Below are positions 1,924-40,373 of a stretch of DNA of 40,373 nt, piece after piece. The notes below the pieces were generated by a model. That model searched no databases, was not told the origin of the DNA, and saw only the letters and a program-made list of their open reading frames with translations. Within the stretch, counting starts at the first letter, position 1; every line of letters begins with the position of its first letter. The stretch spans positions 1 to 40,373 of the forward strand of contig BNWJ01000004.1 in assembly GCA_025998735.1 (NCBI GenBank), written 5' to 3'. This DNA comes from Alphaproteobacteria bacterium. GTDB lineage: Bacteria; Pseudomonadota; Alphaproteobacteria; UBA3830. The translations under genes were made by a program, and so were the position numbers.

Positions 1924-2778
1924 ATGTTAAGTGTTCAAGAATTAATGACGTGTCTGGAAGTCGGACTTATATACGGAATTGCCGCAATTGGCATATATCT
2001 GACTTTCAGAACTATAAACTTCCCGGACTTAACCTGCGACGGGAGCTTCGTGCTCGGAGCTGCGGTGTCGTCGGTTATGCTGAAATCCGGCCAGGATCCA
2101 TATTTGGCAATGGCGTTAGCGCTGATTGCCGGGGGAATGGCCGGACTTCTCACCGGAATATTAAATGTGTATTTAAAAATAGAAGATTTATTATCGGGCA
2201 TCATTGTCGCTTTTATGATGTACTCGGTGAATTTGAGAATCATGGGAACGAATCCAAATATCGCCTTCATGGATGATGTGACAATATTTAGTGGTGGCTA
2301 CTCTACTATTAAAATTGCCGTCATTGTCACAGCTTTAGTTGCACTGTTCGGATATCTGCTGATAACGGATTTCGGATTGGGACTGAGATCCATAGGCCAA
2401 AACAAGCGATTTGCCTCCATTTGCGGCATAAATGTCAAGGCCATGACGATTGTTGGACTCGTGGTCAGCAACGGTCTGATAGGAATGTGCGGCGGGCTTT
2501 TTACGCAGTATCAGGGATTTTGTGATATCAGCCAGGGAGTTGGAACTCTGGTCATAGGACTTGCGTCCGTAATCATTGGTGAAAAACTCTTGAAAATCAA
2601 GAATATGCTGCTAGAGGTTTTCGTATGCGTTTTGGGATCTGTAATCTACAGAATCTTCATAGCATTTGCCATACACAGCGATGCTCTGGGACTAAGAACA
2701 CAGGATCTCAATCTGATAACCGGAATTTTGATAATCGCCATTATGTGCTCTCGGAGGAAAAATGCTGCGTCTAAATAA
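1924..2778 (+). CDS. ABC transporter permease (BPD_transp_2, TrpY type)
   Basis: The 284-residue membrane protein has about eight to nine hydrophobic segments, starting with LIYGIAAIGIYLTFRTINFPDLTCDG, which is typical of the permeases paired with ABC_sub_bind proteins (the F-x-D-L-T-x-D/E-G motif is characteristic). It forms the inner-membrane channel, presumably as a homodimer, with the ATPase encoded next. Its last 17 bases overlap the ATPase gene, indicating coupled translation. A start at 1924 (AAG ATG after GGAATGGAAG) fits the family length of about 280-300 residues. The substrate is likely an amino acid by analogy with TrpXYZ. Confidence 0.88.
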   Translation: MLSVQELMTCLEVGLIYGIAAIGIYLTFRTINFPDLTCDGSFVLGAAVSSVMLKSGQDPYLAMALALIAGGMAGLLTGILNVYLKIEDLLSGIIVAFMMYSVNLRIMGTNPNIAFMDDVTIFSGGYSTIKIAVIVTALVALFGYLLITDFGLGLRSIGQNKRFASICGINVKAMTIVGLVVSNGLIGMCGGLFTQYQGFCDISQGVGTLVIGLASVIIGEKLLKIKNMLLEVFVCVLGSVIYRIFIAFAIHSDALGLRTQDLNLITGILIIAIMCSRRKNAASK

Positions 2779-3427
2779 CATCACGGTCAGAAATACATTG
2801 GTTGATTTAAATCTGACCATCAATAAAGGGGATTTTGTGCTCGTAACCGGCGACAACGGAGCGGGAAAGACCACGCTGTTCAATACCATATCCGGGCATG
2901 TCTTTCCCAAAGGCGGGACCATCGTCATAGACGGCCAAGACGTGACCAAGCTTCCACAGTATGCAAGGGCGGCGGTCGTTTCCAATGTCCTGCAGGATCC
3001 GAGAGCTGGCACTGTTGGAAGCATGACGATCCGAGAGAACCTAAACATCGCTTACATGAGGGGAAAACGCAGGAAATTGATTCTAAGTAATTCTTCCACT
3101 CGCGATGACCTGTATCTAGAAAAATTAAGCATTTTAAAGATGGATCTCGAAAATAGACTGGATGACTACGTCGAGGATCTGTCCGGAGGTCAAAGACAGG
3201 CGCTGAGCATCATCATGTCGATCATCGTCGATTCCAAAATACTGCTGTTCGACGAAATAACCGCTGCGTTGGATCCCAAAACGTCCGACAATATTATGCG
3301 AATTGCGCGCGAAGTCGTGGCAACAGAACAAAAGACTTGCCTCATGATCACCCACAATGTCAACCACATGGATCAACGGGGCTGCCGACGACTCGTCATC
3401 AAAAACGGGAAGTTGAACGAACGGTAA
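2762..3427 (+). CDS. ABC transporter ATP-binding protein (TrpZ type)
   Basis: The 221-residue nucleotide-binding subunit carries a Walker A GDNGAGKTT (about residues 29-37), a signature LSGGQRQ, a Walker B ILLFDE and an H-loop (MITHN). It is about 30 residues shorter than usual for the family, which is within normal variation. It energises the importer with the two upstream products. Its final 19 codons recur, with synonymous changes only, at 4712-4771 beyond the next gene, so the 3' end has been through a recombination or duplication event. Confidence 0.9.
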   Translation: MLRLNNITVRNTLVDLNLTINKGDFVLVTGDNGAGKTTLFNTISGHVFPKGGTIVIDGQDVTKLPQYARAAVVSNVLQDPRAGTVGSMTIRENLNIAYMRGKRRKLILSNSSTRDDLYLEKLSILKMDLENRLDDYVEDLSGGQRQALSIIMSIIVDSKILLFDEITAALDPKTSDNIMRIAREVVATEQKTCLMITHNVNHMDQRGCRRLVIKNGKLNER

Positions 3428-3529: not shown

Positions 3530-4531
3530 ATGAAAACAATTAGTTGTCTTTTATATTTAATTGTTGTGTTTTGCTTCGGGGGAATTGATATTATTAGTGC
3601 GTCAGAAAATGTAGCAACTGAAAAAGATGCTGCGCTCACTCAGCGAATCGAAAAATTTGCAAAGGAGGTTCTAGGTTTACGTGAAAAAGTAGGAGAGGTC
3701 TATCTGGTGATAGGTGAAAAAAACTGCAAAAGAAGCGAAGCTGAAATCGAAGCTAATCCGAAGCCTTATGGAGAAAAAGGATCGCGTAATGAAAGAAGGT
3801 TTGGGGCCGATAACTGGACATTCATGGATTACGATTGGAATGAAACGAACACAAAAAGAATAGGCATCAAAGGTGATATAGCTGATTTAGAAATGTTTAA
3901 ACAACTATCAGCTAAATTGCCAGGTGCTTTTAGCATTATTTTGGATGATTGGGCTTTGTTACAAGGCAATTGCGCGAAAAGAAAAGAAACCGTTGATGAG
4001 ATTCATAAGCTCCTGGGAGATGGAGGGATGCTTATTGCGAATAATCCGTTCGGATCAAAACAAGATGCAGATGAACTGTTTCGAAAATTCAAGGTATATC
4101 GATCATCCAATATATTGGAATGCTCACCATATGGTGGAGGACTTCCATCCGCGGGATCAATTTTTAGATACGGTAATGTGATAGAATTTCTTGTTTGGGG
4201 ATTATACTGTAAGTTGGATGTTGATCTGCAGAATGAAATCTGGTGGGCTTATAATATCATTGTCAAAACAGGCGGCAATAATATTGTGCAGCTTAAACCG
4301 CCATATTTCGTTAATTTCAGGCGGACTCCGAAATATGAAGAGGAAATAGGGAGAAGGGCTATACAGTTGGACAAAATGATTGAGACAGAAATAATACCAG
4401 ATCATTTTCGGTGGACAGTGAACAATATACTTGGGAGCGCAATGCAAATAAAGAAAGATATGTTGCTGTATATGATTGAGCATAAATCACCTGCACTCAG
4501 GGATGGTTTCTTCATACTCAAGAAAAAATAG
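3530..4531 (+). CDS. Exported protein of unknown function with a methyltransferase-like core
   Basis: The 333-residue protein begins with a signal peptide (hydrophobic residues 4-24, cleavage probably near IISASEN). The body reads like a Rossmann fold of the class I methyltransferase type: strand VYLVIG near residue 60, an acidic GDIADLEMF, the strand FSIILDDWALL and the turn LLGDGGMLIANN. No glycine-rich SAM-binding motif can be recognised, so activity is doubtful. A diverged relative is encoded at 32075-33178, with the same order of elements and a similar end (DGFFILKKK versus DGCAIVIKK). It lies between the intact importer ATPase gene and a second copy of that gene's tail. A host-directed role is a guess. 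The ribosome-binding site is GGGAGATAAAAA before the ATG. Confidence 0.75.
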   Translation: MKTISCLLYLIVVFCFGGIDIISASENVATEKDAALTQRIEKFAKEVLGLREKVGEVYLVIGEKNCKRSEAEIEANPKPYGEKGSRNERRFGADNWTFMDYDWNETNTKRIGIKGDIADLEMFKQLSAKLPGAFSIILDDWALLQGNCAKRKETVDEIHKLLGDGGMLIANNPFGSKQDADELFRKFKVYRSSNILECSPYGGGLPSAGSIFRYGNVIEFLVWGLYCKLDVDLQNEIWWAYNIIVKTGGNNIVQLKPPYFVNFRRTPKYEEEIGRRAIQLDKMIETEIIPDHFRWTVNNILGSAMQIKKDMLLYMIEHKSPALRDGFFILKKK

Positions 4532-4555
4532 CCATAAAAACGAGCACATTTGCTT

Positions 4556-4590
4556 GATACCACCGCTGCTTTTGCGGCAGTGGTATCTTT
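4556..4590 (+). terminator. Rho-independent terminator
   Basis: GATACCACCGCTGC pairs with GCGGCAGTGGTATC around a TTTT loop, with two mismatches or wobbles, and is followed by TTT. It sits 25 bases after the stop of the exported-protein gene. Confidence 0.75.
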
Positions 4591-4625
4591 ATGTATTGCG
4601 CGTGCTACGTTTTTTACTCGAAAAA

Positions 4626-4696
4626 TAGACCTGTTGCAAAAGCCTCTTGGAGTCACTGATTATCAGGACCAAAAATAGGCCTACGCAACAGGTCTA
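4626..4696 (+). mobile_element. 71-bp palindromic miniature element, copy 1
   Basis: The termini TAGACCTGTTGC and GCAACAGGTCTA are perfect 12-bp inverted repeats that include the probable TA target duplication. The centre is the palindrome CTGATTATCAG. The sequence is the exact reverse complement of the copy at 12868-12938 and matches the terminus of the insertion sequence at 1-127, which could have supplied the transposase. Confidence 0.85.
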
Positions 4697-4711
4697 ATAT
4701 GTAAGGATCTC

Positions 4712-4771
4712 ATGGATCAACGGGGCTGCCGACGCCTTGTCATCAAAAATGGGAAGTTGAATGAGAGGTGA
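4712..4771 (+). pseudogene. Displaced 3' tail of the importer ATPase gene
   Basis: Twenty codons encode exactly the same 19 residues and stop position as the end of the ATPase gene at 3368-3427 (MDQRGCRRLVIKNGKLNER). Six sense codons differ, all synonymously, and the stop is TGA instead of TAA. Similarity ends abruptly one base upstream of the ATG codon. It has no start signal of its own and is a remnant, not a gene. Confidence 0.85.
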
Positions 4772-7895: not shown

Positions 7896-9283
7896 GTATT
7901 TCTGTGAGTGAATTAGAAAGCATAATCGTTTCCATTAGCCGCATGATTTGGGGAGTCCCATTGATTGCGGCTCTTTTGGGAATAGGAATCTACTTTTCCT
8001 TTAAATTGAAATTTTTGCAGGTTACGCATCTGAAATTAGCCCTAAAATACGTCATTGGCGGTGACAAGCAATCGGATGAGCATCACATTGGAGATATCTC
8101 GAATTTCGCATCGCTTTGTACAGCTTTGTCCGCCACAATAGGAACCGGAAACATTGTTGGGGTCGCGCTGGCAATTACCACCGGAGGCCCGGGAGCCCTG
8201 TTCTGGATTTGGATATCTTCGTTTTTCTGCATGATCCTCAAATATGCAGAAGGCGTTCTGGCCATAAAATATCGCACAGTTGGAAGCGATGGAAAAATGT
8301 CCGGCGGTCCCATGTATTACATCGAAAAGGGACTCGGAAATAAATTTTTTGCGCGATGGTTTGCGTGGGGTGGAGTCGCTGTTGCTTTGGTTGGAATCGG
8401 AACCATGACTCAAACAAACACCATAGCCTCCGCCGCCAATTCATTTGGCATTCCAAACATATTGACAGCTGCGCTAGTGGGAATTGCTGTCGCAGTAATC
8501 ACCATCGGCGGAATTCATCGGATTGCGTATATTTCAGAAAAAATAGTTCCGCTAATGTGTGTATTTTACGTTGGCGCGGCAATCCTAGTATTGATTATGA
8601 AAGCAAATTTCATTCCTAACGCGATATCTCTAATATTTATCGGAGCATTTTCTCCGGAGGCTATTTTCGGTGGAAGCGTTGGTGTCACCTTCATGACTGC
8701 CATCCAGCTGGGAATATGCAGAGGCGTATTCTCTCACGAATCCGGACTGGGAAGTGCAGCAATCGCGTCTGCGGCAGCGAAAGTAGATTCTCCGACAAAG
8801 CAGGGACTCATTTCGATGGTCGGCGCTTTCTTTTCGATAATCGTATGCACCATGACCGGATTGGTACTGATCATCACCAGTAAAGAAACAGGCATCTTCA
8901 CTTCTCAATGCACCATAGACGGAACTCTGCTAACATCTCACGCTTTTGGACTGGGATTGGGAGCTGCAGAGCTGGGAAAATATATCGTTAGCATCGGTAT
9001 TTTATTTTTCGCCTTCACAACTATCATCGGCTGGAATTATTATGGAGAAAAATGCATCCAATATCTTTGGGGAACTAAAGCGATAGCTCCGTACAGGGTT
9101 TTGTTTCTTTTCTTTGTGCTTATTGGTCCGTTTTTCCAAATAGATATCATATTTACGGTAGCAGATATCGTAACCGGATTAATGACCATTCCAAATCTAA
9201 TTGGCCTCATTGGATTGAGAAAAGTAATAGTGGATGAGACATTGTCATTGTGGTTGCAACGCAAGCGGAGAGTTTTCACATAA
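7892..9283 (+). CDS. Alanine/glycine:cation symporter (AGCS family)
   Basis: The 463-residue membrane protein shows the AGCS signatures: CTALSATIGTGNIVGVALAI near residue 75, GGPGALFWIWISSFFCMILKYAE and the later FSHESGLGSAAIASAAAKVDSP. It imports alanine, glycine or glutamine with Na+ or H+. It starts at a GTG inside the stop of the translocase gene. Its final residues (RVFT) and stop codon fall within the miniature element at 9268-9512, so the original C-terminus has been replaced; this end is a variable cytoplasmic tail in the family and function is probably kept. Pairing an energy importer with an amino-acid importer fits host dependence. Confidence 0.93.
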   Translation: MSISVSELESIIVSISRMIWGVPLIAALLGIGIYFSFKLKFLQVTHLKLALKYVIGGDKQSDEHHIGDISNFASLCTALSATIGTGNIVGVALAITTGGPGALFWIWISSFFCMILKYAEGVLAIKYRTVGSDGKMSGGPMYYIEKGLGNKFFARWFAWGGVAVALVGIGTMTQTNTIASAANSFGIPNILTAALVGIAVAVITIGGIHRIAYISEKIVPLMCVFYVGAAILVLIMKANFIPNAISLIFIGAFSPEAIFGGSVGVTFMTAIQLGICRGVFSHESGLGSAAIASAAAKVDSPTKQGLISMVGAFFSIIVCTMTGLVLIITSKETGIFTSQCTIDGTLLTSHAFGLGLGAAELGKYIVSIGILFFAFTTIIGWNYYGEKCIQYLWGTKAIAPYRVLFLFFVLIGPFFQIDIIFTVADIVTGLMTIPNLIGLIGLRKVIVDETLSLWLQRKRRVFT

Positions 9284-9512
9284 ATATAGCACGCAAAGAA
9301 GCTCATTTATCAGCCTAAAAACTCGTTTTTAGCTTCATTAATTCGCTTTTTTGTAATAGACTGATTTATCAGCAAAAACGTGAAAAACGCAGCTCAATTT
9401 TGTCTTCTGTGATGAAGGTATCTGCATTTGTCTTGATATCAGCTGCGTCTATTTTTCTGAAATTTCAAAGTTTTCCGCCAACTTGCTCGACTATATTTGT
9501 CTGAAAACTCTC
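9268..9512. mobile_element. About 240-bp miniature element, copy 1
   Basis: The ends GAGAGTTTTCA and TGAAAACTCTC are perfect 11-bp inverted repeats. The interior is closely similar, in inverted orientation, to 25554-25790 inside fmt. It contains pairing segments around TAAAAAC/GTTTTTA and GAAGCT/AGCTTC that could form strong hairpins. No transposase is encoded. Left, it supplies the end of the symporter gene; right, it truncates an ISAs1-like transposase. Together with the flanking IS there is no intact gene between 9284 and 10800. Confidence 0.8.
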
Positions 9513-10524
9513 ATATTTAGGAGCGCAAAGTCGATGCATATGAAAAATATGCACGGATTAACTCGTTTTACAGTAAAATCTTCCCGGAACGTTGCATCTT
9601 TCACATGATACAATTTATTTTCGATAAACCAATGCTCGCGAATACATTTCACGTATTTTTCCGGCTCGAGTTCTCCATTGGAAACGTAGTAACTCGTTGT
9701 TATAGAAGGTTTTTCGTCGACACCAACTTCTTCTCTAACTTTTGTGACTCTTATGATTTTTCTCAGAAAAGGCCATTCATCTTGCCACTTGTTTAACATT
9801 GGCAATGGTTCGAAAATCTCGTATGTCCGCTGCTCGACACGCCCGTGTTCCTTATCGAAATCATTCTCAATTACAGCTGCAGATTTGCATATTGAGCAAC
9901 CGAACTCTATTTGCTTCAGCAGACTTGGTTGGTTATTTTTCACCTGTGTTATCAGAATTGCTTTTGCATCTTCAGCTGATTCAAAAGTTTTTTTTGGCAA
10001 TGAAGAGCATCTGCAGAAACCACAACTCCCTTCAAATTGAACTTCTGCAGAAATTCCTGAAGCGCTGGAATTTCACTATCTTTTTCGCTTTCCAGTTGCA
10101 GATGGCCTAGAACTTTTTTGCTCACCGCTGAAAAAGCACTGAGAATCTTTGACTCACTTTTGTCTTGCGTTTTTGAGCCGCTTCCGCGCAAAACTTTACC
10201 GTCAAAGCAAATGTGCTCGATCTCCTTCTGATATTCTGATGTATCAGAAAAATATTTCATGAAAACTTGTTCCATATCGGAAAAATCAATGCGTGTAAGG
10301 ATCTTCCATACGCATGATATCGTGGGAGATCTTCCCCATTTGAGCTCAAAAACACTCACTAAGTTATTAAAATTACACTCCATGAAGCGTTGTATATCGC
10401 TATATGTCTTCGCGTTGCTCGCTATCGCAAAAATTGAAAACAATATGATCTCCCACAACTGATATTCTTTCCCGTTAGGTTTGCGATCATCTTTTATCTC
10501 TTTTAACGCATCTATAATTTTCAT
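9513..10524 (-). pseudogene. ISAs1-family transposase, frameshifted and 3'-truncated
   Basis: The N-terminal part (from 10524) begins MKIIDALKEIKDDRKPNGK and includes CFDGKVLRGSGSK and VVSADALHCQK, typical of ISAs1/H-repeat transposases. The remainder is in another frame: KTFESAEDAKAILITQVK through EHWFIENKLYHVKDATFRED and VKRVNPCIFF. The frame change falls exactly on a run of eight A (plus-strand T run near 9989-9997); one extra A would restore the frame. The last residues before the stop at 9491 (MRVFRQI) are encoded by the miniature element, not by the transposase. Inactive, unless slippage on the A run occurs, and even then truncated. Confidence 0.85.
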
Positions 10525-12846: not shown

Positions 12847-12867
12847 ATTTTATTTCCTATTCTTCAT

Positions 12868-12938
12868 TAGACCTGTTGCGTAGGCCTATTTTTGGTCCTG
12901 ATAATCAGTGACTCCAAGAGGCTTTTGCAACAGGTCTA
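12868..12938 (-). mobile_element. 71-bp palindromic miniature element, copy 2
   Basis: Exact reverse complement of the copy at 4626-4696 over all 71 bases, with ends TAGACCTGTTGC/GCAACAGGTCTA. It stands just upstream of the hepT-like start codon, in a position to influence its transcription. Confidence 0.85.
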
Positions 12939-13094
12939 TTACTTCACTATGATCACGCCACAACGGACTTCAGTGTACAAAATAAGACAATATTGCTGCA
13001 AGGCTATATACATCTCCAACATGATGTATTGGAAGTTCTGAAAGTTATCAGTAATACACCTCTCATCTATTCGACAACATTTCCGCAAATTTCA

Positions 13095-14595: not shown

Positions 14596-15702
<1,107 letters not shown>

Positions 15703-25136: not shown

Positions 25137-25898
25137 CTATACAAAAGATTTTTCCAGAAGATTCTTATAACCGCGCATGAAATCTTCAGCCTTCATTTTG
25201 TTTTTCCCTTCCGGCTGAACTTCCAGAAGCCGAACGCAGCCGATTCCACAAGAAACAATCATCTTTTCATGTATGGTGCCAGGAGTTTCTGAGAAATCCT
25301 TGGAAGAGAGTTCTGCATCGAGAATCTTGATGCGCATACCGTTGATTTCGCTCCAAGCAGACGGAATTGGAGAAAACGCCTTGATTTGTCGCAGAATATT
25401 TTCCGCCGAATCGCCCCAATTAATTCGACACGACTCCTTCGCGATTTTTGCTGCATATGTGGCTCCGGATTCCGGCTGTTTGTACGCATTTGCCAGGTTT
25501 TCTTCGAGATTATCGAGTGTTTCCAGAATCATTTCCGCTCCAAGAGAGTTTTCAGACAAATATAGTCGAGCAAGCTGGCGGAAAACTTTTGGAATTTCAA
25601 CAAAATAGGCTCGGTTGACTTCAAGAAAAACGTAAGCATTCTTACTGCAGAAGACAAAATTGAGGCGCGTTTTTCACGTTTTTGCTGATAAATCAGTCTA
25701 TTACAAAAATGCGAATTAATGAAGCTAAAAACTCGTCTTTAGGCTGATAAATGAGCTTCTTTGGGCTGCTATATTTATGTGAAAACTCTCTGGTTTTGGA
25801 GGCTGCGTATACACCGCCACAACATTGCCCCCTTCCCGATGCATGGCCTCCAGAGCCTTTAGCGAAAAGCCCGATGTTCCCATAAAAACAATCTTCAT
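25137..25898 (-). pseudogene. fmt: Methionyl-tRNA formyltransferase, core replaced by a miniature element
   Basis: From the ATG at 25898 the frame reads MKIVFMGTSGFSLKALEAMH and continues to YTQPPKPE, the first 37 residues of Fmt. Then the 240-bp element (25554-25790) begins. Beyond it the frame LGAEMILETLDNLEENL onward runs to the natural end, containing the linker and C-terminal tRNA-binding domain (about 135 residues). About 130 residues in between are missing, including the formyl-folate-binding Asn-x-His and Asp active-site residues. The enzyme formylates initiator Met-tRNA; this copy cannot be active. Whether another fmt exists elsewhere cannot be told from the window. No def or rsmB neighbour is present. 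Confidence 0.92.
25554..25790. mobile_element. About 240-bp miniature element, copy 2 (inside fmt)
   Basis: Same 11-bp ends (GAGAGTTTTCA/TGAAAACTCTC) and closely similar interior as 9268-9512, in the opposite orientation. The differences are small substitutions and a few indels, clustered in the 25600-25650 portion. Confidence 0.85.
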
Positions 25899-26055
25899 GC
25901 AGTATAACCCATATCAAACGATATCATCATACTAGCATTTTTTAAGAAGATCATTAATAAAACCAACAAATTCAGGAGCACAAAAAATTAGCATTGCTCC
26001 CGACAAAAGCGATGCTCCAACACGCAAGACAAAATATCCGCATAACAGATTCTAT

Positions 26056-26126
26056 TAGACCTGTTGCGTAGGCCATTTTGTGGGCCTGATAATCAGGAGC
26101 TCCAAGAGGCTTTTGCAACAGGTCTA
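26056..26126 (-). mobile_element. 71-bp palindromic miniature element, copy 3
   Basis: Same length and ends as the copies at 4626 and 12868 and same orientation as the latter, but with changes in the middle (ATTTTGTGGGCC in place of TATTTTTGGTCC, and AGGAGCTCC in place of AGTGACTCC). It ends eight bases downstream of the exported-protein gene that stops at 26135. Confidence 0.85.
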
Positions 26127-26134
26127 TTGTATGG

Positions 26135-27121
26135 TCACGAATCTGGTGTCTCGAGCGCTCTAAGCCTTTGCAACGGTTCCTTTTGAACATCTGGTGACAA
26201 ATCTTTAAAACGTTTTACACCGATACTACTTTTTAGATATGTTTTATACTTTGCATTGTGCGCCAGCTCACGAATCGTAAAGCATCCGTGAAACGCAATC
26301 ACTGTGACAAAGTTAATGTTTATTTTTTCAGATTTTATCATTGTAGACGTCCATCGTTCTCGAAGTTCCTCTGTGTAAATATTGTCACTTTTCCAACGGT
26401 CGCTCCACATTGTTTCAACTGCACATTGGGACGCTGCTCTCGCGGCAATTAAAGATCCCGCCAAACCACATGCGGCACGTCGCTCTTCTTCAGCATCATA
26501 TTCACTCAAAAAAACTGTCTCATCTAAAATAGAATCGACAATCGACTCCGAAAGTTTGCCAAGGATAAACAGACCTGTAATCATTGGTGTAGCGATGTTG
26601 CATAGCGTCGTAGAATATAGGTGTTCCCACTTTTTATAATCCGTACGACTTTGTTCAAGCACTAGCACAACATCGCCTATACCTTCGACACGTACTCTGC
26701 GCCAATGTAGCACTCTTCTACAAGCTTCTTTTTCATCGTCGTAGAAAGATTGGCATCTTTCGTCAGCGATAGTGAGACGTTTTATTCTTTTCGTGCAATC
26801 TTTTCTATACCTTTCACAAAGACCCAGCATACCTTTCGCAAAAAACTGGCCATCACTGATGAGAGAGCTTTCACGACTTTTCGCGAAATAACGATGGTTT
26901 TTCCAAGATAAATGCTCGGCACTCATTCCCATTATGTTTCTTAGTTTGACATTGCCGGCAGATCCATTCCGAACACTAATCAAATGACACCCCCTGAGAA
27001 TTATGTCTCGATTCATCCCGCTGAGTCCATTTACAACATTATAATCTCCCATCGCTTTCAATGACGGTGACAACACAACTCCGCACATAACAAGAGCGGC
27101 AACAATTTTAATTTTACTCAC
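26135..27121 (-). CDS. Exported protein of unknown function, tandem paralogue A
   Basis: I start at the GTG at 27121 because CGGAG lies eight bases upstream; this gives 328 residues with the signal peptide SKIKIVAALVMCGVVLSPSLKA. An in-frame ATG 24 bases earlier is possible. The mature part is Cys- and Arg-rich, mostly helical in appearance, without any domain I recognise. It shares with the protein at 27467-28387 RNIMGMSAEH (RNLIGMCNEH there), a helix IATPMITGLFILGKL (IAVPLIKDLFILDKL) and a terminal GVKRFKDL (GARKFKDL). The leader and signal-peptide sequence is almost identical between the two genes. Probably a secreted accessory factor. Confidence 0.72.
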   Translation of the reverse strand: MSKIKIVAALVMCGVVLSPSLKAMGDYNVVNGLSGMNRDIILRGCHLISVRNGSAGNVKLRNIMGMSAEHLSWKNHRYFAKSRESSLISDGQFFAKGMLGLCERYRKDCTKRIKRLTIADERCQSFYDDEKEACRRVLHWRRVRVEGIGDVVLVLEQSRTDYKKWEHLYSTTLCNIATPMITGLFILGKLSESIVDSILDETVFLSEYDAEEERRAACGLAGSLIAARAASQCAVETMWSDRWKSDNIYTEELRERWTSTMIKSEKININFVTVIAFHGCFTIRELAHNAKYKTYLKSSIGVKRFKDLSPDVQKEPLQRLRALETPDS

Positions 27122-27292
27122 GTTTTTTCTCCGTATAACCATTAGTCCACTAAAGCTCCTAACACACCTGTGCCAAGACAACAAACTAAACATGAACTCC
27201 GTCCGGAGCGTACAACAAAAAAAGGCAAAATGCAATACGCCATTTCGTCTTTTTTGCGATTGTTAACTCACGCAACTATGAAAAATACGTCG
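27060..27292 (-). repeat. Leader and signal-peptide repeat, copy A
   Basis: The sequence from inside the signal peptide to about 165 bases before the GTG matches 28320-28552 closely (nearly identical over the first 130 bases), with the same length between the start codon and the distal GAAAAAT block. It should hold the promoter and ribosome-binding site; TTGCAT near 27232 is a possible -35. Confidence 0.8.
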
Positions 27293-27466: not shown

Positions 27467-28387
27467 TTAGTGCGGGCCCCTTTCAAGAGCAATCCGCGCA
27501 ATGGCTTCATCTTTCTTCCACTTAGGTAAATCTTTGAACTTTCTTGCGCCGATACTGTCTAGAAACGGCTCATTCGCATCATCTGGATTCATATCACGAA
27601 TCGTTTCGTAACCATCCGGCCAACATGGCCAGACATGATTGACATCAAGACCACCACGTTCGCGCATTAGACGCGTTAATTCCCAACGCGTTTCGTTTGT
27701 GAAAATCTGGTCTGTAGCAAAGTACGGGTCCCAAAAATAATGCAATGCGTCATAATCCGCCACTCTCCTTTCAATTAGAAATCTGACCACATCTAGACCT
27801 GCACGTCTCTCCGCTACGGGGCGCATTCTATCAACCAAAGCGCCAGCGGCTGCCTGCAAAATTTCACAGGCACAGTCGTTGCCAAGTTTGTCAAGTATGA
27901 ACAAATCTTTAATAAGAGGCACAGCAATGTCAGACACTGCGGCAGAAAATACATTATTAAGCGCATGCTGGTTACAAAAACACATCCGGCCGATTTCGTC
28001 AAAGCGGGCGGCCAGCACAGCATTCCAATGGTTGGCGTACTCAGGTCCGGCAGCGCCGCCAGCATATGGGGCCACCACAGGAGCTGGCTGCGCCGATAGC
28101 ATACGGGCCGCCAAAATCGGACGGCACCTGTGAACATTTGCAGCCATCCGTTTGCGGCCTATCAAGAAAGCGCCATGGGTTATATGCTGAAAATGCTCAT
28201 TGCACATTCCGATCAGGTTTCTGATGTTGTCATTCTCTTTAGAGCCGTGGCAATCACGCCCAATCAAATCACATAGCTTGAGAACTGTATATTTCGGAAT
28301 AGGGTTCCCATCTTCCATAGCTTCCAACGACGGCGACAACACAACTCCGCACAAAACAAGAGCGGCAACAATTTTAATTTTACTCAC
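27467..28387 (-). CDS. Exported protein of unknown function, tandem paralogue B
   Basis: Starting at the GTG at 28387 (CGGAG eight bases upstream) gives 306 residues with signal peptide SKIKIVAALVLCGVVLSPSLEA, one to two residues different from paralogue A. The mature protein has a central Ala/Pro-rich stretch (about residues 85-105) and helical segments with the shared motifs listed for the neighbour, but overall similarity is low. No catalytic motif is recognised. The gene has its own terminator. The pair looks like an old duplication whose 5' parts have been kept alike. Confidence 0.72.
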   Translation of the reverse strand: MSKIKIVAALVLCGVVLSPSLEAMEDGNPIPKYTVLKLCDLIGRDCHGSKENDNIRNLIGMCNEHFQHITHGAFLIGRKRMAANVHRCRPILAARMLSAQPAPVVAPYAGGAAGPEYANHWNAVLAARFDEIGRMCFCNQHALNNVFSAAVSDIAVPLIKDLFILDKLGNDCACEILQAAAGALVDRMRPVAERRAGLDVVRFLIERRVADYDALHYFWDPYFATDQIFTNETRWELTRLMRERGGLDVNHVWPCWPDGYETIRDMNPDDANEPFLDSIGARKFKDLPKWKKDEAIARIALERGPH

Positions 28388-28552
28388 GTTTTTTCTCCGT
28401 ATAACCATTAGTCCACCAAGGCTCCAGACACACCTGTGCCAAGACAACAAACCATAACGCGGACTTCGCCTATGTATACAACAAGAGGAAGCGTAATGCA
28501 ATACGCCATTTCGTCTTTCTTGTTGTCGTTAACTCACTCAACTATGAAAAAT
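28320..28552 (-). repeat. Leader and signal-peptide repeat, copy B
   Basis: Counterpart of 27060-27292. A possible promoter is TTGCAT followed after 17 bases by TATACA, read on the minus strand about 28498-28470. Identity with copy A includes the non-coding part, so it is not explained by protein constraint. Confidence 0.75.
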
Positions 28553-33315: not shown

Positions 33316-35082
33316 ATGCTTGATAAAATAAAACGTTGGCTAAGTGGTTCCCACATTGTAATGGACTACAAAGACATATACCCATACATAGAACCGTACA
33401 AAATCAGAGCATTGTTGGCGGTTTTGATCACGTTTCCGGTTGGAATGATGGACGCCATAATCGCATGGTCGTTGAAACCGTATATGGATGTGGTCATGAT
33501 AGAGAAGAATCTGTCTGCCAGTTCCTACATACCACTGTTGATAATATTTTTCAGTTTGCTGCAGAGTGGATTCAACTACTCTGCCACCTATCTAAACGCC
33601 TGGGTTGGTGCAAAAATAAGCAGTAGCCTCAAATACAGTCTATTCAAAAGATTAATGAGATACGAGGCCACATTTTTCGACAGAAACACGTCCGGTAACA
33701 TTCAGATGCGCTTTAACTCGGACGTAGACTCCGCCTGCACAGGCCTTCTAAATAACATGAAATTATTTACCACACGAATTTTCTCTTCTATATCACTCAT
33801 CTCCGTACTGCTAATTAACTCGTGGCAATTGGCAGTTGTAGCTATGGTTGTACTGGCGGGAGCGCTGTATCCACTGACGACAATAAGAAAACGCATAAAA
33901 AGCATTCTGGGAAAGACTGTGTTTTCCGGAGCTGCCATAATGACCCACTATGTTGAGGCATTTAATGGAAATCGCATAATCGCCTCCTATAATCTCTACG
34001 ATCGATTGCAGAAGAAATTTTCAGATACATTGGCGAGTGTGTTTACGCTCAGCATGAAGATGATCCAGAGAACTGGTATTTTATCGCCCATGATGCATTT
34101 CATAATTTCCATTGGAATAGCCGCTGTAATTTGGCTTGGAAGTTATCTCGTTGCACACAATGACCTAACTCCTGGAGGATTTGTGTCGTTCATAACTGCG
34201 CTTCTGCTGCTATATCAGCCGATAAAATCCATTGGAAACGATTATAATGCCATGCAGGTGTCTCTAATGGCAATGGAGCGCGTATTTACACTACTAAATG
34301 AATCTGCGTCGATTGTGGATAGTCCATCGGCCAAGAAATTGGAATTCATAAAAGACAGTATCTGCTATAAAAATGTTTGTTTTGAATATGCAAAAGGTAA
34401 GCCAGTACTGAAGAACATTAATCTGGAGATAAAAGTTGGCGAAACCACAGCATTGGTGGGAAATTCCGGCGGAGGCAAGACCACGTTGGTAAATTTACTG
34501 CCGAGATTCTATGATATTAAGTCCGGAAAAATACTCATAGATGGCCATGACATACGAGATATTGAGCTGGATTCACTTCGAGACCAAATCGCCATAGTTT
34601 TTCAGGATAACTTTTTGTTTGCCGGAACCATCCGAGAAAATATTATGGTCGGAAAAGAAAATGCCACGGAAGATGAGCTGAAACAAGCCATAGAATCATC
34701 GTGTCTAACCGAGTTCATCGCATCGCTTGATCTTGGCGTTGATACGGAAATAGGAGAGCGTGGCGTTCTGCTATCCGGCGGTCAAAAACAGCGAGTAGCC
34801 ATTGCTCGGGCATTTCTGAAAAATGCAACAATTGTAATACTGGACGAGGCGACATCGGCGCTGGATAACAAGTCCGAAGCCATTGTGCAGGAGGCCATCG
34901 AGAATCTCATGAAGGATAGAACTGTCTTCGTTATTGCCCACCGACTATCCACAGTCCGAAATGCCGACAAGATAGTAGTCGTTAATCACGGAAAAATTAT
35001 AGAAATTGGCTCGCACGAGGAACTAATCAACAAAAAAGGCAGCGAATACGCTTCTTTGTATTACACGCAATTGTCGAGTTGA
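33316..35082 (+). CDS. msbA: Lipid A exporter / ABC half-transporter MsbA
   Basis: The 588-residue half-transporter has an N-terminal membrane domain of six helices (about residues 25-310) and a C-terminal ATPase with Walker A GNSGGGKTT, Q-loop VFQDNFLFAG, signature LSGGQKQR, Walker B IVILDEATSALD and H-loop IAHRLS. It most resembles MsbA-type lipid flippases of alphaproteobacteria; other export substrates are possible. I start at the ATG at 33316; no clear ribosome-binding site is present, and a TTG at 33298 is an alternative. Its last 40 codons recur in diverged form at 36205-36327. Confidence 0.9.
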   Translation: MLDKIKRWLSGSHIVMDYKDIYPYIEPYKIRALLAVLITFPVGMMDAIIAWSLKPYMDVVMIEKNLSASSYIPLLIIFFSLLQSGFNYSATYLNAWVGAKISSSLKYSLFKRLMRYEATFFDRNTSGNIQMRFNSDVDSACTGLLNNMKLFTTRIFSSISLISVLLINSWQLAVVAMVVLAGALYPLTTIRKRIKSILGKTVFSGAAIMTHYVEAFNGNRIIASYNLYDRLQKKFSDTLASVFTLSMKMIQRTGILSPMMHFIISIGIAAVIWLGSYLVAHNDLTPGGFVSFITALLLLYQPIKSIGNDYNAMQVSLMAMERVFTLLNESASIVDSPSAKKLEFIKDSICYKNVCFEYAKGKPVLKNINLEIKVGETTALVGNSGGGKTTLVNLLPRFYDIKSGKILIDGHDIRDIELDSLRDQIAIVFQDNFLFAGTIRENIMVGKENATEDELKQAIESSCLTEFIASLDLGVDTEIGERGVLLSGGQKQRVAIARAFLKNATIVILDEATSALDNKSEAIVQEAIENLMKDRTVFVIAHRLSTVRNADKIVVVNHGKIIEIGSHEELINKKGSEYASLYYTQLSS

Positions 35083-35171
35083 ATATGTGACTCTATTCCT
35101 GAAAAAATATAGACTCAAGGGTGGAGCAAAACATGGGCATAAAAATTTTTCAATAAAAGCGCATAAAAGCA

Positions 35172-35200
35172 TTGACAGCTTTCCCGAGGTGTGATATTGT
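35172..35200 (+). promoter_or_regulatory. Promoter of the ankyrin gene
   Basis: TTGACA at 35172-35177, a 17-base spacer and TATTGT at 35195-35200 (4 of 6), 32 bases before the start codon. The accessory gene thus has its own promoter independent of msbA. Confidence 0.6.
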
Positions 35201-35232
35201 TTTTGTATAAGGTTTTAAATACGGAGGGAATA

Positions 35233-36102
35233 ATGAATAAAACCATTTGTGCAATAAAAGGAGCTATATGCATGCTGTCAATGGTGGCAGTTGCGTTGTT
35301 GAGTGCGGCAGATAAGGCTAAACTTAACGAAGAGCTCTTCGCAGCAATTCGGGGGAAGGATTCAGATGCCGTGCAACAGCTACTGGAGAGAGGCGCAGAG
35401 GCAACTGCAATAGACAGCAGCTGGACCAAATATGGACTCCGCTGGACAGCGCTTCATATTGCGGTGATGGGTAGCAGCAGTCAAATTATCGCGTCTCTCA
35501 TATCAAGAGGAGCCAATGTTAATGAGAAAAACCACAACCTCGCTACGCCATTGCATCTTGTTAGACGCCCGGAATATGTCCCGTTTCTTCTCGGCGTTCC
35601 AGGTGTTCTAGTAAATGAAAAAGATAAGGATGGAATTACCCCATTGGTTTATTATGCAGGATGTGGCAATTTGGGCATCGTAAACGCTCTTCTGGCCGAT
35701 GACAGAGTTATAGCACTCGTAAACACGCCAGACGAAAATGGTCGGACACCATTGCACTATGCAGCAAAAGAAGGAAAACACGAAGTCGTCAATGCTCTTC
35801 TAGCAAGCGGGGCTGACGCAGACACAGTGGATGTTAATAACCAAACAGCTTTTGATTTAGCATCGGCGAAATACAAAGAATATGGTGGCAAAGTAGAGGA
35901 ACTCCATGCTATTAGAAATGCGCCCGGTTATACACGAGAAGGATACGCTGCCGCGCATGACATCAACGCTTATGGTCCGCAGCATGCAGCCTTTGGTCTT
36001 AATGTTGGTGCGTCAGAATACCAACACGATCAGAGCCGCAGGGCTGCGACATATAAAGCCGTTATAGATATTCTTGAACCAATCACTCACAAGCCTTCAT
36101 AA
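35233..36102 (+). CDS. Exported ankyrin-repeat protein
   Basis: The 289-residue protein has a signal peptide (residues about 5-25, cleavage near LLSAADK) and five ankyrin units between residues 30 and 215: a clear TALHIAVMGSSSQIIASLIS, TPLHLVRRPEYVPFLL, TPLVYYAGCGNLGIVNALL and TPLHYAAKEGKHEVVNALLAS. The C-terminal 75 residues are of no known fold. Ankyrin proteins bind other proteins and are frequent host-interaction factors in intracellular bacteria; the signal peptide points to Sec export first. GGAGGG precedes the start. It lies between msbA and a second copy of the msbA tail, with its own promoter and terminator. Confidence 0.9.
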   Translation: MNKTICAIKGAICMLSMVAVALLSAADKAKLNEELFAAIRGKDSDAVQQLLERGAEATAIDSSWTKYGLRWTALHIAVMGSSSQIIASLISRGANVNEKNHNLATPLHLVRRPEYVPFLLGVPGVLVNEKDKDGITPLVYYAGCGNLGIVNALLADDRVIALVNTPDENGRTPLHYAAKEGKHEVVNALLASGADADTVDVNNQTAFDLASAKYKEYGGKVEELHAIRNAPGYTREGYAAAHDINAYGPQHAAFGLNVGASEYQHDQSRRAATYKAVIDILEPITHKPS

Positions 36103-36122
36103 GGCAAGAGAGTTGTTGGAGA

Positions 36123-36150
36123 ACGGTCTCTTGTTTAGAGGCCGTCCTTT
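36123..36150 (+). terminator. Rho-independent terminator of the ankyrin gene
   Basis: ACGGTCTCT pairs with AGAGGCCGT (one G-U) around a five-base loop, followed by CCTTT. Confidence 0.65.
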
Positions 36151-36204
36151 CGTGTAACCAAGCTCTTCCTTGAAAACACAGTGTTTCCAGACACGCCGCC
36201 TTGC

Positions 36205-36345
36205 AATGCCGACAAAATAGCGATCGTTAATGACGGAAAAATTATAGAAATTGGCTCGCACGAGGAACTAATCAATAAAAAAGGCACCGAATACGCTTCT
36301 CTGTATTACACGCAATTGTCAAGTTGAATGTGTGACTCTGTCAAC
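36205..36345 (+). pseudogene. Displaced 3' tail of msbA
   Basis: Forty codons plus the stop (36205-36327) correspond to the end of msbA (34960-35082). Nine bases differ: four codon changes are silent and four give mild replacements (V to A, V to I, H to D, S to T). The frame and stop are kept, and similarity continues about 15 bases past the stop. There is no start codon or ribosome-binding site. The remaining part of 36103-36520 holds only the terminator and no gene. Confidence 0.88.
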
Positions 36346-36520
36346 GCAATTTAGAAATGTCCGGTTTTAGTGCAAGAACAAGCCTACAGCAAAGCAGCGC
36401 TTTTCTTGCAATTTAGAAAATGGTCCTAATATCTCAATAGCTCCTGTATGCTACAGAGAAATTTTGTTGAGAAATTAAGTGATCCACAAGAACATTTACT
36501 TCTTTTGAAGTCTGTAGCGC

Positions 36521-39500
36521 CTATTGCCCCTCCACTATGTGTGCTGGAGTATATTCGGCAAATGAGTCTGATTTTATATCGGTGGCGATTTCGGCGAGTT
36601 TGGCCTTTAGAGCGTCTGCGGTGGAGACGTCGTAGACATAATCAGAGTCAGACGCGCATTCGTCGATGTACGTGTAATCTCCAGCTTGTTTTTTATATTT
36701 TATGACGTAGATGCGGATGTCTGAGTTATCGCTCTTCAGCTTGGCGCAGGCGGCGATTGTGACGTCCTTGACCGTTCTGCCGGCAGCTGCGTCGGATATG
36801 GAGATGCCTGTAGCATTATAGAGGACCGCATTGACGGGCTTAGTGAATCCGCTGTAAATCATGCGATATTTGGCTCCGGCCGCGGCGTTTCGAACCTCAA
36901 ACGTGGCATCAGGATCGGGATATGCACCTTGTGGCATAAACATTCGGTGAATGCCGGGCAAATAGAGAGCATTTGCATCGTGATCTGCGGTTGCATGGTC
37001 GTTATCGTACCAGTATGTGAGTGGTAGAGCGCCAACGCTTTCCATCAGGCAGAAGAAATCGCCTTTTGCGCCTGATCTACCGACGCTAACGGAGGATATT
37101 CCGGTACTGTTGTCTTTTGTCACCCAGTAACCGAGATTGGCGTCCCACTCAGCGCTATCATTTGCTGTAAATGAGACATCGGAGCCGGAAGATGCTGCTC
37201 CAGATGTGGAAAAGTCCATGTAGCGAGTCAGGGCGGCGTTCGGTGCGCGGACAGGCTTCATTTCGGGTGTGGAAATGAATTTCGCCTTTACCAATGCGAT
37301 GTTATTCATTGTAAATGACGGCGTAGTGTATGTATCGCCGCTTTTGGTCATATTTGAGAACGGAATCGTGATGGTTTGCCTGGCGGAAATGGTTTTCTGT
37401 GCCTGATCGGAGCCGGAATCGAACTTAAACGTGCATCCACTGGTTCCGGGAGCGGGCGCGATGGTCAGTTCGATGTTTCCTTTTTTCGTCGACGTAAGAG
37501 TGCCGGAGCCGGACGTGCATACAAAAAATTTGCCGTCTGTAGATATAGATCCCGCGCCCGAGTAGTTGATTACACCGTTTCGTCCTGCAGAAATCGCTTC
37601 GGAAAAGACGATTATGTCATCGACGATTTCGGTGACCGGATAGGTAACGGAAGCCGACACAATACTAGCGTTAGTCCGATTGATGTCCATATACCCGCCG
37701 GCGGTGGATATGGTTTCAGTCAAAGTTTGCTCTACGCTGTCCTGCGTGATAGACGTAGAAGTGAAACCACTGTCACTGCCGGAATCGTCACCTGGATTTC
37801 TAATGGCAATGGTGGCAGGCGAATCGTCAAGATTCGCCTCCAACACTTTGCCAGAGCCGCACTCTATGGCATATAATTTATTGCCCATTGAGCAAAGGTC
37901 GTGCCAATATCCAGAAACAGCGTAGCCGCCCTCCACATTGCCAGCTTCTTCCGGGCTAGGCGCGACGAGTGTCCATTTGCCACTTCCTCCCGGCGTGTAC
38001 TCCAACACTTTGCCAGACTCCACATCTATGGTATACAATTTATTGCCTATTGCGCAAAGGCCGTACCAATATCCAGAAACAGCGTAGCCGCCCTCCACAT
38101 TGCTAGCCGTAGCGGGGCTAGGCGCGACGATTGTCCATTTGCTATTCCCCCCCGGCGTGTACTCCAACACTTTGCCAAAGTCGTAAGCTATGGCATACAA
38201 TTTATCGCCTATTGTGCAAAGACCGAACCAATATCCAGAAACAGCGTAGCCGCCCTCCACATTGCCAGCTTCTTGCGGGCTAGGCGCGACGATTGTCCAT
38301 TTGCCACTCCCCCCCGGCGTGTACTCCAACACTTTGCCAGAGAGGCGCTCTATGGCATACAATTTATCGCCTATTGTGCAAAGACCGTACCAATATCCAG
38401 AAACAGCGTTGCCGTCCTCCACATTGCCAGCTTCTTCCGGGCTAGGCGCGACGATTGTCCATTTGCCACTCCCCCCCGGCGTGTACTCCAACACTTTGCC
38501 AGAGAGGCGCTCTATGGCATACAATTTATCGCCTATTGTGCAAAGACCGTACCAATATCCAGAAACAGCGTTGCCGTCCTCCACATTGCCAGCTTCTTCC
38601 GGGCTAGGCGCGACGATTGTCCATTTGCCACTCCCCCCCGGCGTGTACTCCAACACTTTGCCAAACCCCTCCTCTATGGCATACAATTTATTGCCTATTG
38701 CGCAAAGGCCGTACCAATATCCAGAAACAGCGTTGCCGCCCTCCACATTGCTACCATCTTCTGGGCTGGGCGCGACGAGTGTCCATTTGCCACTCCCCCC
38801 CGGCGTGTACTCCAACATTTTGCCAGTAGTGTTATCTGAGGCATACAATTTATCGCCTATTGAGCAAAAATTGTACCAATATCCAGAAACAGCGTTGCCG
38901 CCTTCCACATTGCTAGCTTCTTCTGGGCTAGGTGCGACGTGTGTCCATGGCGGTGATTTCGTCACCGTTAGCGTGATGGTTTCGGCTTTGGAAGAGGCCA
39001 GGCGGTCGATGGTCTTGGGCTTCTGGTAGTCGATGGAAGCCGACACGATTGTAACGCCGTCTCGGTTGATGTCCACGGTGTAGCCGGCGGCGTCGTTTCC
39101 ACTTAGCTCGTTCGCGGAAATTGTGAAGGTTGTGCCACTTACAGTCGTTCCATTGATCGTGTGGGATGTGGCGCCCGCGTCGAGAGTCATCGTCAGCATA
39201 ATATCCGCTTTTTTTGTGGAGGTCAGGCGGTCGATGGTCTTGGTTTCCGTATAGTCGATGGAGGCTGAGGTGATTGTGATGCCGACCAGGTTGATGTCCA
39301 CGGTATAGCCAGTGGCGTCGTTTCCAGTTAGCTGATTTGCGGAAATTGTGAAGGTTGTGCCGCTTACGGTCGTTCCATTGATCGTGTGGGATGTGGTGCC
39401 CGCGTCGAGAGTTACTGTCAGCGTAATATTTGCTTTTTTGGTGGATTTCAGATGCTCGACGGGGTTTGGCTGGACAGAAGCCGACACAATATCAACGTTG

Positions 39501-40373
39501 GTCCGATTGATCTGTATTTGCCCGCCAGTGGTGATGAGAACCGTAAAAGTTTGATTTGCTGTGGTGTTAGGATCAAAGCCGGAAGGCGCTGTCCCGTCAA
39601 TTTGGAGAGACGTAGGCACTAGACTTGTCTCCAACACTTTGCCAGAGCCGTACTCTGCGGCATATAATTTATTGCCTATTGTACAAAGACCGTACCAAGA
39701 TCCAGAAACAGCGTAGCCGCCCTCCACATTGCCAGCCGTAGCGGGGTTAGGTGCGACGAGTGTCCATTTGCCACTCCCCCCCGGCGTGTACTCCAACACT
39801 TTGCCAGAGTCGCGCTCTATGGCATATATTTTATTGCCTATTGCGCAAAGACCGTACCAATATCCAGAAACAGCGTAGCCGCCCTCCACATTGCCAGCTT
39901 CTTCCGGGCTAGGCGCGACGAGTGTCCATTTGCCACTCCCCCCCGGCGTGTACTCCAACACTTTGCCAGAGTCGCGCTCTATGGCATATATTTTATTGCC
40001 TATTGCGCAAAGGCCGCACCAATATCCAGAAACAGCAGTGCCGCCCTCCACATTGCCAGCTTCTTCCGGGCTAGGCGCGACGAGTGTCCATTTGCCACCC
40101 CCCCCCGGCGTGTACTCCAACACTTTGCCAAGGCCGTACTCTGCGGCATATAATTTATTGCCTATTGCGCAAAGGCCGCACCAAGATCCAGAAACAGCAG
40201 TGCCGCCCTCCACATTGCCAGCTTCTTCCGGGCTAGGCGCGACGAGTGTCCATTTGCCACCCCCCCCCGGCGTGTACTCCAACACTTTGCCAAACCCCTC
40301 CTCTATGGCATACAATTTATTGCCTATTGCGCAAAGGCCGTACCAATATCCAGAAACAGCGTTGCCGCCCTCC
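36521..40373 (-). CDS. Large repetitive surface protein with TadG-like C-terminus (5' end outside window)
   Basis: At least 1283 residues are encoded; the frame is open to the window edge. From the N-terminal side: five copies of a 54-residue unit (GLCAIGNKLYAI...GKVLEYTPGGSGKW), a spacer with two copies of a 75-residue beta-rich unit (SHTINGTTVSGTTFTISAN), seven more 54-residue units, then a Gly/Ser/Thr-rich region and a C-terminal part. The last 80 residues (CAKLKSDNSDIRIYVIKYK, then ECASDSDYVYDVSTADALK) resemble the end of VWA-type TadG pilus proteins. The repeats, with regular Trp, Gly and Tyr, suggest beta-propeller blades. Each contains a poly-G codon run (7 to 9 G). Probably an envelope-anchored or secreted adhesin. 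Confidence 0.78.
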   Translation of the reverse strand, partial: EGGNAVSGYWYGLCAIGNKLYAIEEGFGKVLEYTPGGGGKWTLVAPSPEEAGNVEGGTAVSGSWCGLCAIGNKLYAAEYGLGKVLEYTPGGGGKWTLVAPSPEEAGNVEGGTAVSGYWCGLCAIGNKIYAIERDSGKVLEYTPGGSGKWTLVAPSPEEAGNVEGGYAVSGYWYGLCAIGNKIYAIERDSGKVLEYTPGGSGKWTLVAPNPATAGNVEGGYAVSGSWYGLCTIGNKLYAAEYGSGKVLETSLVPTSLQIDGTAPSGFDPNTTANQTFTVLITTGGQIQINRTNVDIVSASVQPNPVEHLKSTKKANITLTVTLDAGTTSHTINGTTVSGTTFTISANQLTGNDATGYTVDINLVGITITSASIDYTETKTIDRLTSTKKADIMLTMTLDAGATSHTINGTTVSGTTFTISANELSGNDAAGYTVDINRDGVTIVSASIDYQKPKTIDRLASSKAETITLTVTKSPPWTHVAPSPEEASNVEGGNAVSGYWYNFCSIGDKLYASDNTTGKMLEYTPGGSGKWTLVAPSPEDGSNVEGGNAVSGYWYGLCAIGNKLYAIEEGFGKVLEYTPGGSGKWTIVAPSPEEAGNVEDGNAVSGYWYGLCTIGDKLYAIERLSGKVLEYTPGGSGKWTIVAPSPEEAGNVEDGNAVSGYWYGLCTIGDKLYAIERLSGKVLEYTPGGSGKWTIVAPSPQEAGNVEGGYAVSGYWFGLCTIGDKLYAIAYDFGKVLEYTPGGNSKWTIVAPSPATASNVEGGYAVSGYWYGLCAIGNKLYTIDVESGKVLEYTPGGSGKWTLVAPSPEEAGNVEGGYAVSGYWHDLCSMGNKLYAIECGSGKVLEANLDDSPATIAIRNPGDDSGSDSGFTSTSITQDSVEQTLTETISTAGGYMDINRTNASIVSASVTYPVTEIVDDIIVFSEAISAGRNGVINYSGAGSISTDGKFFVCTSGSGTLTSTKKGNIELTIAPAPGTSGCTFKFDSGSDQAQKTISARQTITIPFSNMTKSGDTYTTPSFTMNNIALVKAKFISTPEMKPVRAPNAALTRYMDFSTSGAASSGSDVSFTANDSAEWDANLGYWVTKDNSTGISSVSVGRSGAKGDFFCLMESVGALPLTYWYDNDHATADHDANALYLPGIHRMFMPQGAYPDPDATFEVRNAAAGAKYRMIYSGFTKPVNAVLYNATGISISDAAAGRTVKDVTIAACAKLKSDNSDIRIYVIKYKKQAGDYTYIDECASDSDYVYDVSTADALKAKLAEIATDIKSDSFAEYTPAHIVEGQ
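37870..38945 (-). repeat. Seven tandem 162-bp (54-residue) repeats
   Basis: The landmark CCAGAAACAG recurs every 162 bases at 37911, 38073, 38235, 38397, 38559, 38721 and 38883. Two neighbouring units (roughly 38341-38502 and 38503-38664) appear identical, showing recent duplication. Seven units fit a closed seven-bladed propeller. Confidence 0.92.
39020..39470 (-). repeat. Two 225-bp (75-residue) repeats
   Basis: The segment around CATTGATCGTGTGGGATGTG recurs 225 bases apart (39151 and 39376), encoding the same SHTINGTTVSGTTF strand-rich unit; a third, partial relative lies on either side (KTIDRLASSKAETITLTV and NPVEHLKSTKKANITLTV). Confidence 0.85.
39640..40373 (-). repeat. Five 162-bp repeats continuing past the window
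   Basis: The same landmark recurs at 39702, 39864, 40026, 40188 and 40350. The units near 40090 and 40260 have nine consecutive C on the plus strand (PGGGGKW), whereas most others have seven (PGGSGKW). Confidence 0.92.

Follow-up and report, generated by a model that had tools for sequence, protein, structure and literature searches.

The window analysed here is the 40,373-nucleotide (nt) contig BNWJ01000004.1 (C4) of a draft alphaproteobacterial genome (G000: 1.62 Mb, 260 contigs, 81% complete), in which genes for exported proteins lie between a complete household gene and a second copy of the last bases of that gene. At the locus in question a complete msbA-like lipid A exporter gene (33316..35082, plus strand), the parent, is followed by a gene coding an ankyrin-repeat protein of 289 amino acids (35233..36102, plus strand, start ATG at 35233; Ank_2 and Ank matches), behind which the end of msbA appears again. 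The exporter matches ABC_membrane and ABC_tran, and is named after its best NCBIfam match, TIGR02203, which at 515 bits stays below the cut-off of 602; the names iscS and iscU, used below, are likewise best NCBIfam matches below their own cut-offs. The proximal copy of the msbA tail (34960..35094, including the stop codon) and the distal copy (36205..36339, plus strand; 40 codons, the stop and 12 nt) form a direct repeat of 135 nt, with 92.6% identity and a spacing of 1245 nt, that has the ankyrin gene, hereafter the cargo, in between. None of five first-order Markov shuffles of the window gave a direct repeat of at least 40 nt (E ≤ 1e-5, copies 300-5000 nt apart).

Ten differences separate the two msbA tails, nine of them in the 123 coding nt, where four codons change silently (AAG/AAA, AAC/AAT, TTG/CTG, TCG/TCA) and four residues are replaced (V to A, V to I, S to T and H to D); frame and stop codon are intact in the distal copy. 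The first-pass annotation of this DNA, made from the letters and open reading frames (ORFs) only, had read the tail in the same way, with nine base changes and four silent ones; it also took the four replacements for conservative ones, which does not hold for H to D. Similarity past the stop, which it put at about 15 bases, extends over 12 bases with one difference. It had further described the ankyrin gene as exported and provided with its own promoter and terminator: the N-terminus is indeed signal-peptide-like according to our own simple rule, which considers ATG starts only, and candidate sites are present, namely TTGACA-17-TATTGT at 35172..35200, a consensus match only, and a predicted hairpin with a weak T run at 36123..36145, both on the plus strand; such sites are, however, no commoner than in shuffles (3 promoter-like sites against 3.1, and 1 terminator-like site against 1.5).

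The genome is a relative of Holosporaceae, and among its named relatives are genomes from yak-rumen and red-deer samples as well as records bearing the title Holosporaceae bacterium. Among 42 relative msbA loci (some being two cuts from the same record), 35 of which have more than 1245 nt downstream, each contains its own tail once; neither a second tail nor an independent tandem duplication of msbA was found in any of them. The nearest msbA relative (L039) shares no gene order with the window within 13.7 kb, and its gene 3' of msbA lies on the other strand. The best non-self match of the ankyrin protein has 39% identity over 57% of its length; the start region of its gene is also found at places on contigs C32, C28, C21, C49 and C22.

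The sister case that had been placed at 3368-4771 was recovered with slightly different limits. Its parent is the gene of a small ABC transporter ATPase (2762..3427, plus strand; ABC_tran match), the subtype of which is not settled, as 0 of the 25 NCBIfam matches shown reach their cut-off; the proximal tail (3367..3420) and the distal one (4711..4764), both on the plus strand, are 92.6% identical over 54 nt. The cargo between them (3530..4531, plus strand) has a signal-peptide-like start according to our rule and no Pfam match, and a search for relatives of its protein returned only the protein itself. Beside the distal tail stands a dispersed repeat of 75 nt (4624..4698, plus strand), similar to a miniature inverted-repeat transposable element (MITE), which is also present at 12866-12940 and 26054-26128 of the window and in many copies in the sampled genome.

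Comparison of 921,593 bases of G000 (57%), taken piecewise (the L numbers) and each piece compared to itself, gave 45 repeat pairs in total, many of which are MITEs, starts of paralogues, or repeats located within or between repeat genes. As anticipated by the first-pass annotation, further cases occur in the genome, and behind many genes: the layout recurs behind dnaA (L093), a DUF167 gene (L099), gyrA (L109), the 5S ribosomal RNA (rRNA) gene (L115), vgrG and iscS (both L117), and behind gap (L130) with two cargoes and three tails. Two extra tail copies of polA were found by a protein-level search over the neighbours of exported genes, and folC is a related case, in which the downstream fragment derives from inside the gene, not from its tail. 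The names dnaA, DUF167, gyrA, vgrG, gap and folC stand for NCBIfam matches above the cut-off, polA for a DNA polymerase I match above the cut-off, and the 5S rRNA was identified by Rfam. The two cases of the window had suggested that ABC-ATPase tails are the targets; this preference is rejected, since dnaA, gyrA, gap, polA, iscS, vgrG, the DUF167 gene and 5S rRNA serve equally. The ten or eleven different target genes have tail copies of 50 to about 180 nt, with identities from 73.5% (far polA tail) to 96.6% (DUF167). Most distal copies (10 of 13) have their end at most 40 nt from the stop codon; the exceptions are 5S (+49; its repeat comprises the last 26 nt of the gene and 49 nt beyond), iscS (-187) and folC (-311).

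In the relative G002 (488,971 bases) one tail case was found, with a parent that looks exported and the second copy at a contig end, together with one further repeat pair just past the end of era; 164,447 bases of the relative G003 contained no tail case. The layout is hence commoner in G000 than in these two samples, yet it is not limited to G000. Misjoining of two strains of the sample during assembly, for which a draft of 260 contigs and 81% completeness leaves room, is hardly credible as the source of the second copies: these differ by about 3-27%, start inside coding sequence and decay independently (iscS), and a similar case exists in G002, although there the second copy is at a contig end.

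The position of the repeats within genes was examined for 620 ORFs without signal peptide, counting copies that lie outside ORFs: the tail recurs downstream in 15 cases and upstream in one, the head upstream in four and downstream in five, and the middle in six. Nine of the 15 tail-downstream rows are cases already named (msbA, ABC ATPase, DUF167, dnaA, gyrA, polA, vgrG and gap twice), and the other six (L095, L105, the second ORF of L112, the minus strand of L130, L132 and L143) are by eye antisense, unidentified or repeat-family ORFs; by eye the same kinds of ORFs make up the 16 control rows (one tail-upstream, four head-upstream, five head-downstream, two middle-upstream and four middle-downstream), one middle row being the DUF167 case. 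Thirteen rows inside other ORFs had been set aside as likely paralogues (two tail-downstream, two tail-upstream, two head-downstream, three head-upstream, three middle-downstream and one middle-upstream). For 300 ORFs of G002 the corresponding copies outside ORFs were three tail-downstream, one head-downstream, one head-upstream and one middle-downstream; two of the tail rows belong to the L234 repeat family, and the third is L244. A test based on gene neighbours gave a weak contrast before trimming, with matches in 18 of 567 tail-facing and 10 of 541 head-facing positions. Tail-facing matches amounted to 7/90 with an exported neighbour and 11/477 with another neighbour, and head-facing ones to 2/77 and 8/464, respectively; judged by eye, six and three of the tail-facing rows and none of the head-facing rows are real. 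For seven protein parents the end of the repeat lies at most 45 nt from the stop, and the product of the chance values, 3e-10, is overstated, as the rule used for finding cases favours tails. Gene ends would be preferred through selection, which is sufficient because an insertion behind a gene leaves that gene whole; no special site would be needed.

The cargoes are enriched in signal peptides, as the first-pass annotation had suspected: 8 of the 10 in the first list have one according to our rule, compared with 120 of 730 other ORFs of at least 100 amino acids (binomial 1.7e-5). The 5S cargo and the first gap cargo fail the rule and look exported by eye; so do the polA and folC cargoes, which stand outside this count, being found later. 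Cargo size ranges from about 0.5 to 2.7 kb, a wider range than the 1.1-1.3 kb inferred from the two cases of the window, and direction is not fixed, the cargoes of dnaA, vgrG, iscS, polA and folC being opposite to their parents. Pfam gave no match for 9 of 9 G000 cargoes scanned; the msbA cargo matches ankyrin families only, two polA cargo pieces match MORN only, and the folC cargo has no match. A motif shared by the junctions, also envisaged earlier, was not seen by eye in ten junctions; no motif search was run.

Genomic islands and prophages are known to occupy the 3' ends of tRNA or protein genes, as do the tRNA islands and e14 at icd, and they leave a similar picture, with a complete gene, a cargo and a displaced 3' fragment carrying base changes. 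Small islands moved by site-specific recombinases that act on the 3' ends of genes and rebuild the gene, as happens at tRNA genes, could thus have produced the layout, and four tyrosine-recombinase matches are present in the genome; these are on contigs C136, C100, C40 and C78, and no case lies on those contigs. The scanned cargo proteins (ten, plus three from polA and folC; the first polA cargo was not included) gave no match to a recombinase family, integrases included, whereas an island would be expected to carry such a gene; ten or eleven targets, with tail copies that vary in length and end, show no fixed attachment core, and the cargo is usually a single gene. This origin is therefore very improbable.

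Insertion is clearest at the iscS locus. The order here is iscS, a cargo on the other strand, a decayed piece of iscS, iscU, and then matches to IscA/SufA, HscB (weak) and HscA. In 14 of the 14 same-family relatives examined, iscU starts between -21 and +57 nt from the iscS stop, so that the cargo here is an insertion and the distal tail stands at its native place; among nine more distant loci one has the two genes adjacent, and the other eight gave no iscU match. Judging from gene order, DNA has been gained at a formerly empty site in this one case. As a dispersed repeat follows each iscS copy, the copied unit seems to have extended beyond the gene. A dispersed repeat of 60-75 nt (L117 9369-9443 / 7872-7930) occurs at many places in the sampled genome, and we take it to be reminiscent of the Rickettsia palindromic elements.

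The reading that we favour, with a probability of roughly 50%, is insertion by homology on one side and loose joining on the other, known as homology-facilitated illegitimate recombination, a process whose loose side often uses short microhomology, followed by amplification via the tails. A gene for an exported protein would enter immediately 3' of a household gene, and its arrival would bring or cause a duplicate of the final 50 to about 180 bases of the household gene; of the two copies, the proximal one would remain in the complete gene and the distal one would be a decaying remnant. DNA uptake would probably precede joining: ComEC and DprA matches above their cut-offs, a possible route of uptake, are present in G000, and Ku gave no match in the 12 genomes searched, G000 included. 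The incoming DNA would then pair within the gene tail on one side and be joined loosely on the other. The tails flanking a cargo could afterwards recombine with each other, deleting or multiplying the cargo and leaving the household gene unharmed, which would give arrays such as those of gap and polA.

Probable traces of exchange between tails are seen in gap and dnaA. In gap, the first part of the middle tail and the spacer preceding it are common to the far tail, the last 135 coding nt equal those of the near tail except for one base, which the far tail shares, and the last two tails share flanks; in dnaA, the copies agree completely over the last 63 of 104 nt, all 11 mismatches lying in the 41 nt before. 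The chance values, 4e-5 for each pattern, were computed post hoc. These patterns look like crossovers or conversion between tails, and an unequal crossover between the near and the far gap tail would produce a middle tail of this kind along with a second cargo. An outcome of that sort is seen in the polA array, which consists of a tail, an exported gene, a tail, a paralogous MORN gene, a tail and a MORN remnant. Tandem amplification therefore takes part, as the gap and polA arrays indicate, and the cassette acquisition proposed by the first-pass annotation is borne out as insertion at iscS, but does not account for everything.

The arrays raise the question of whether all cases could be explained by tandem duplication of a unit of gene tail and cargo, after which the distal cargo was lost or decayed and only its tail was left. 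In polA the duplicated unit is found on both sides of the junction, and the three gap tails, with their two cargoes and the flanks common to the last two, go part of the way; duplication explains polA, and perhaps gap, better than insertion does. What makes it a serious rival is that insertion fits dnaA and vgrG only with later damage. As a general origin it is nonetheless rather unlikely, since no DNA resembling the cargo or the region of its promoter was found 3' of the distal tail in the single-cargo cases, the closeness of most distal copies to the stop codon is not expected of random deletions, and the original arrival of the iscS cargo between iscS and iscU is left unexplained.

Several observations weigh against insertion as the general route. 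The complete dnaA ends as it does in relatives (RLLTHVMEK; RLLTQVMEK in G002 and G005) and it is the distal copy that ends short of the stop, opposite to what the insertion model in its simplest form predicts; the distal vgrG copy likewise breaks off early. Both call either for a later deletion in the remnant, which is an assumption, or for some previous event in the recipient; the ends of gyrA and DUF167 are undecided between the models. When the differences between copies are polarised by relatives, those siding with copy 1, those siding with copy 2 and the ties number 4, 2 and 3 for msbA, 2, 1 and 0 for gyrA, 7, 3 and 1 for dnaA, 5, 2 and 1 for near and middle gap, 13, 5 and 3 for near and far gap, and 15, 10 and 0 for iscS; the result is mixed and does not discriminate between a foreign tail and a decayed duplicate. 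A native distal flank is shown for iscS only, and the iscS cargo shows no signal peptide and does not look exported by eye either; the comparable test at 5S gave no support, tRNA-Cys being beside 5S in no relative listed. The cargo of the polA array is paralogous, plainly a tandem duplication, and the contrast between heads and tails in the neighbour test depends on rows dropped by eye. Dispersed repeats border the distal msbA, ABC-ATPase and iscS copies, and the mechanism as a whole is read from footprints, with neither donor sequences nor ancestral junctions in view.

The border repeats may have helped in the formation of the layout, and they also raise the possibility that insertion sequences or MITEs moved the cargoes, the tail copies being by-products of transposition or of recombination between repeats. 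The distal msbA tail ends about where a dispersed repeat begins (36337..36414, plus strand; partial copies in contigs C71, C37 and C13), the 75-nt repeat that borders the distal ABC-ATPase tail also stands on either side of another exported gene (L109 14626-14695 / 15449-15518), and the iscS insert includes about 250 nt of a multi-copy repeat. Against this, the tail copies, 50 to about 180 nt long, match the neighbouring gene and are unlike short target-site duplications, and the interiors of the DUF167, 5S and vgrG cases match nowhere else in the sampled genome, so that we regard transposition as an improbable source of the cargoes. The repeat of about 250 nt is present in the window as well, as an inverted pair 16 kb apart (9268-9513 / 25544-25790).

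If insertion behind gene tails is accepted, it bears on the open question of how host-associated bacteria gain new exported proteins without a visible transfer element. Integron arrays, in which single-gene cassettes are separated by short repeats and stand next to an anchor, offer a comparison: here too single-gene cassettes are parted by short repeats beside an anchor, but the repeats belong to the anchor gene itself (integron integrase and attC were not searched for). We advance as a doubtful extension that the tails of essential genes are standing docking and amplification sites, where cargo could be gained, lost, multiplied and swapped without an integrase, in an integron-like fashion by homologous recombination alone, and that a repertoire of exported, perhaps host-acting, proteins would be built in this way. 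Were household tails reusable landing places, the distal tails would record each gain, readable in any genome, and would point to fast-evolving exported genes, mostly without a recognisable domain.

The first-pass annotation took homologous capture with loose joining for an undescribed route; the combination is that of homology-facilitated illegitimate recombination, a known process (PMC3240628, PMC5361080). According to the accessible parts of the sources, it has been observed in Acinetobacter, Streptococcus pneumoniae, Pseudomonas stutzeri and Escherichia coli conjugation, and agrees with the present cases in having one homologous end and one loose end, in the addition of foreign DNA and in the link with natural transformation (PMC2884548, PMC3240628); there, competent or conjugating laboratory species and single loci were studied, whereas here many natural footprints with exported cargo are seen and the mechanism is inferred. 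The same process has been proposed for the type VI secretion system effector-immunity arrays of Vibrio cholerae, which resemble, as do the orphan tips of Rhs and contact-dependent inhibition systems, the layout described here, with a module at the 3' region of a gene, the old 3' part displaced, and arrays (PMC5361080); in those systems the displaced end belongs to the effector system, unlike the unrelated household-gene tail, with cargo between, found here. Merodiploids of S. pneumoniae, formed in transformation by alternative pairing of repeats, use repeats as crossover points and have hybrid junction repeats, like the mosaic gap tail, but their repeats are pieces of insertion sequences and the duplications span about 100-900 kb (PMC3784515). 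As far as the accessible sections of the open-licence papers go, insertion at household-gene tails is not described as a system, and those of the Holosporales review PMC11909080 gave no match for 'competence' or 'natural transformation'. The likely process is thus a known one, whereas a recurrent role for it at the tails of household genes, in acquiring and amplifying exported genes, is absent from the sections consulted; if true, it would provide natural, genome-wide evidence for a recombination process known, in the portions of the literature consulted, mostly from selected events and single loci.

Other repeats were observed in the sampled genome and in the window. Direct repeats that involve no gene tail flank exported genes at L121 2687-2825 / 3773-3911 (exported by eye) and at L137 5798-5854 / 6671-6727, and direct repeats of 297 nt (95%) surround a gene without signal peptide, AAA ATPase-like by eye, at L097 4963-5259 / 6722-7018. 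In the window, two adjacent genes on the minus strand have 244 nt (86%) of their upstream and start regions in common (27044-27286 / 28310-28552), and no longer match between the two was found. Downstream of the msbA locus, a long minus-strand ORF (36521-40315), which runs close to the contig end, contains 162-nt repeats and has Kelch-like and DUF6230 matches below the cut-off.

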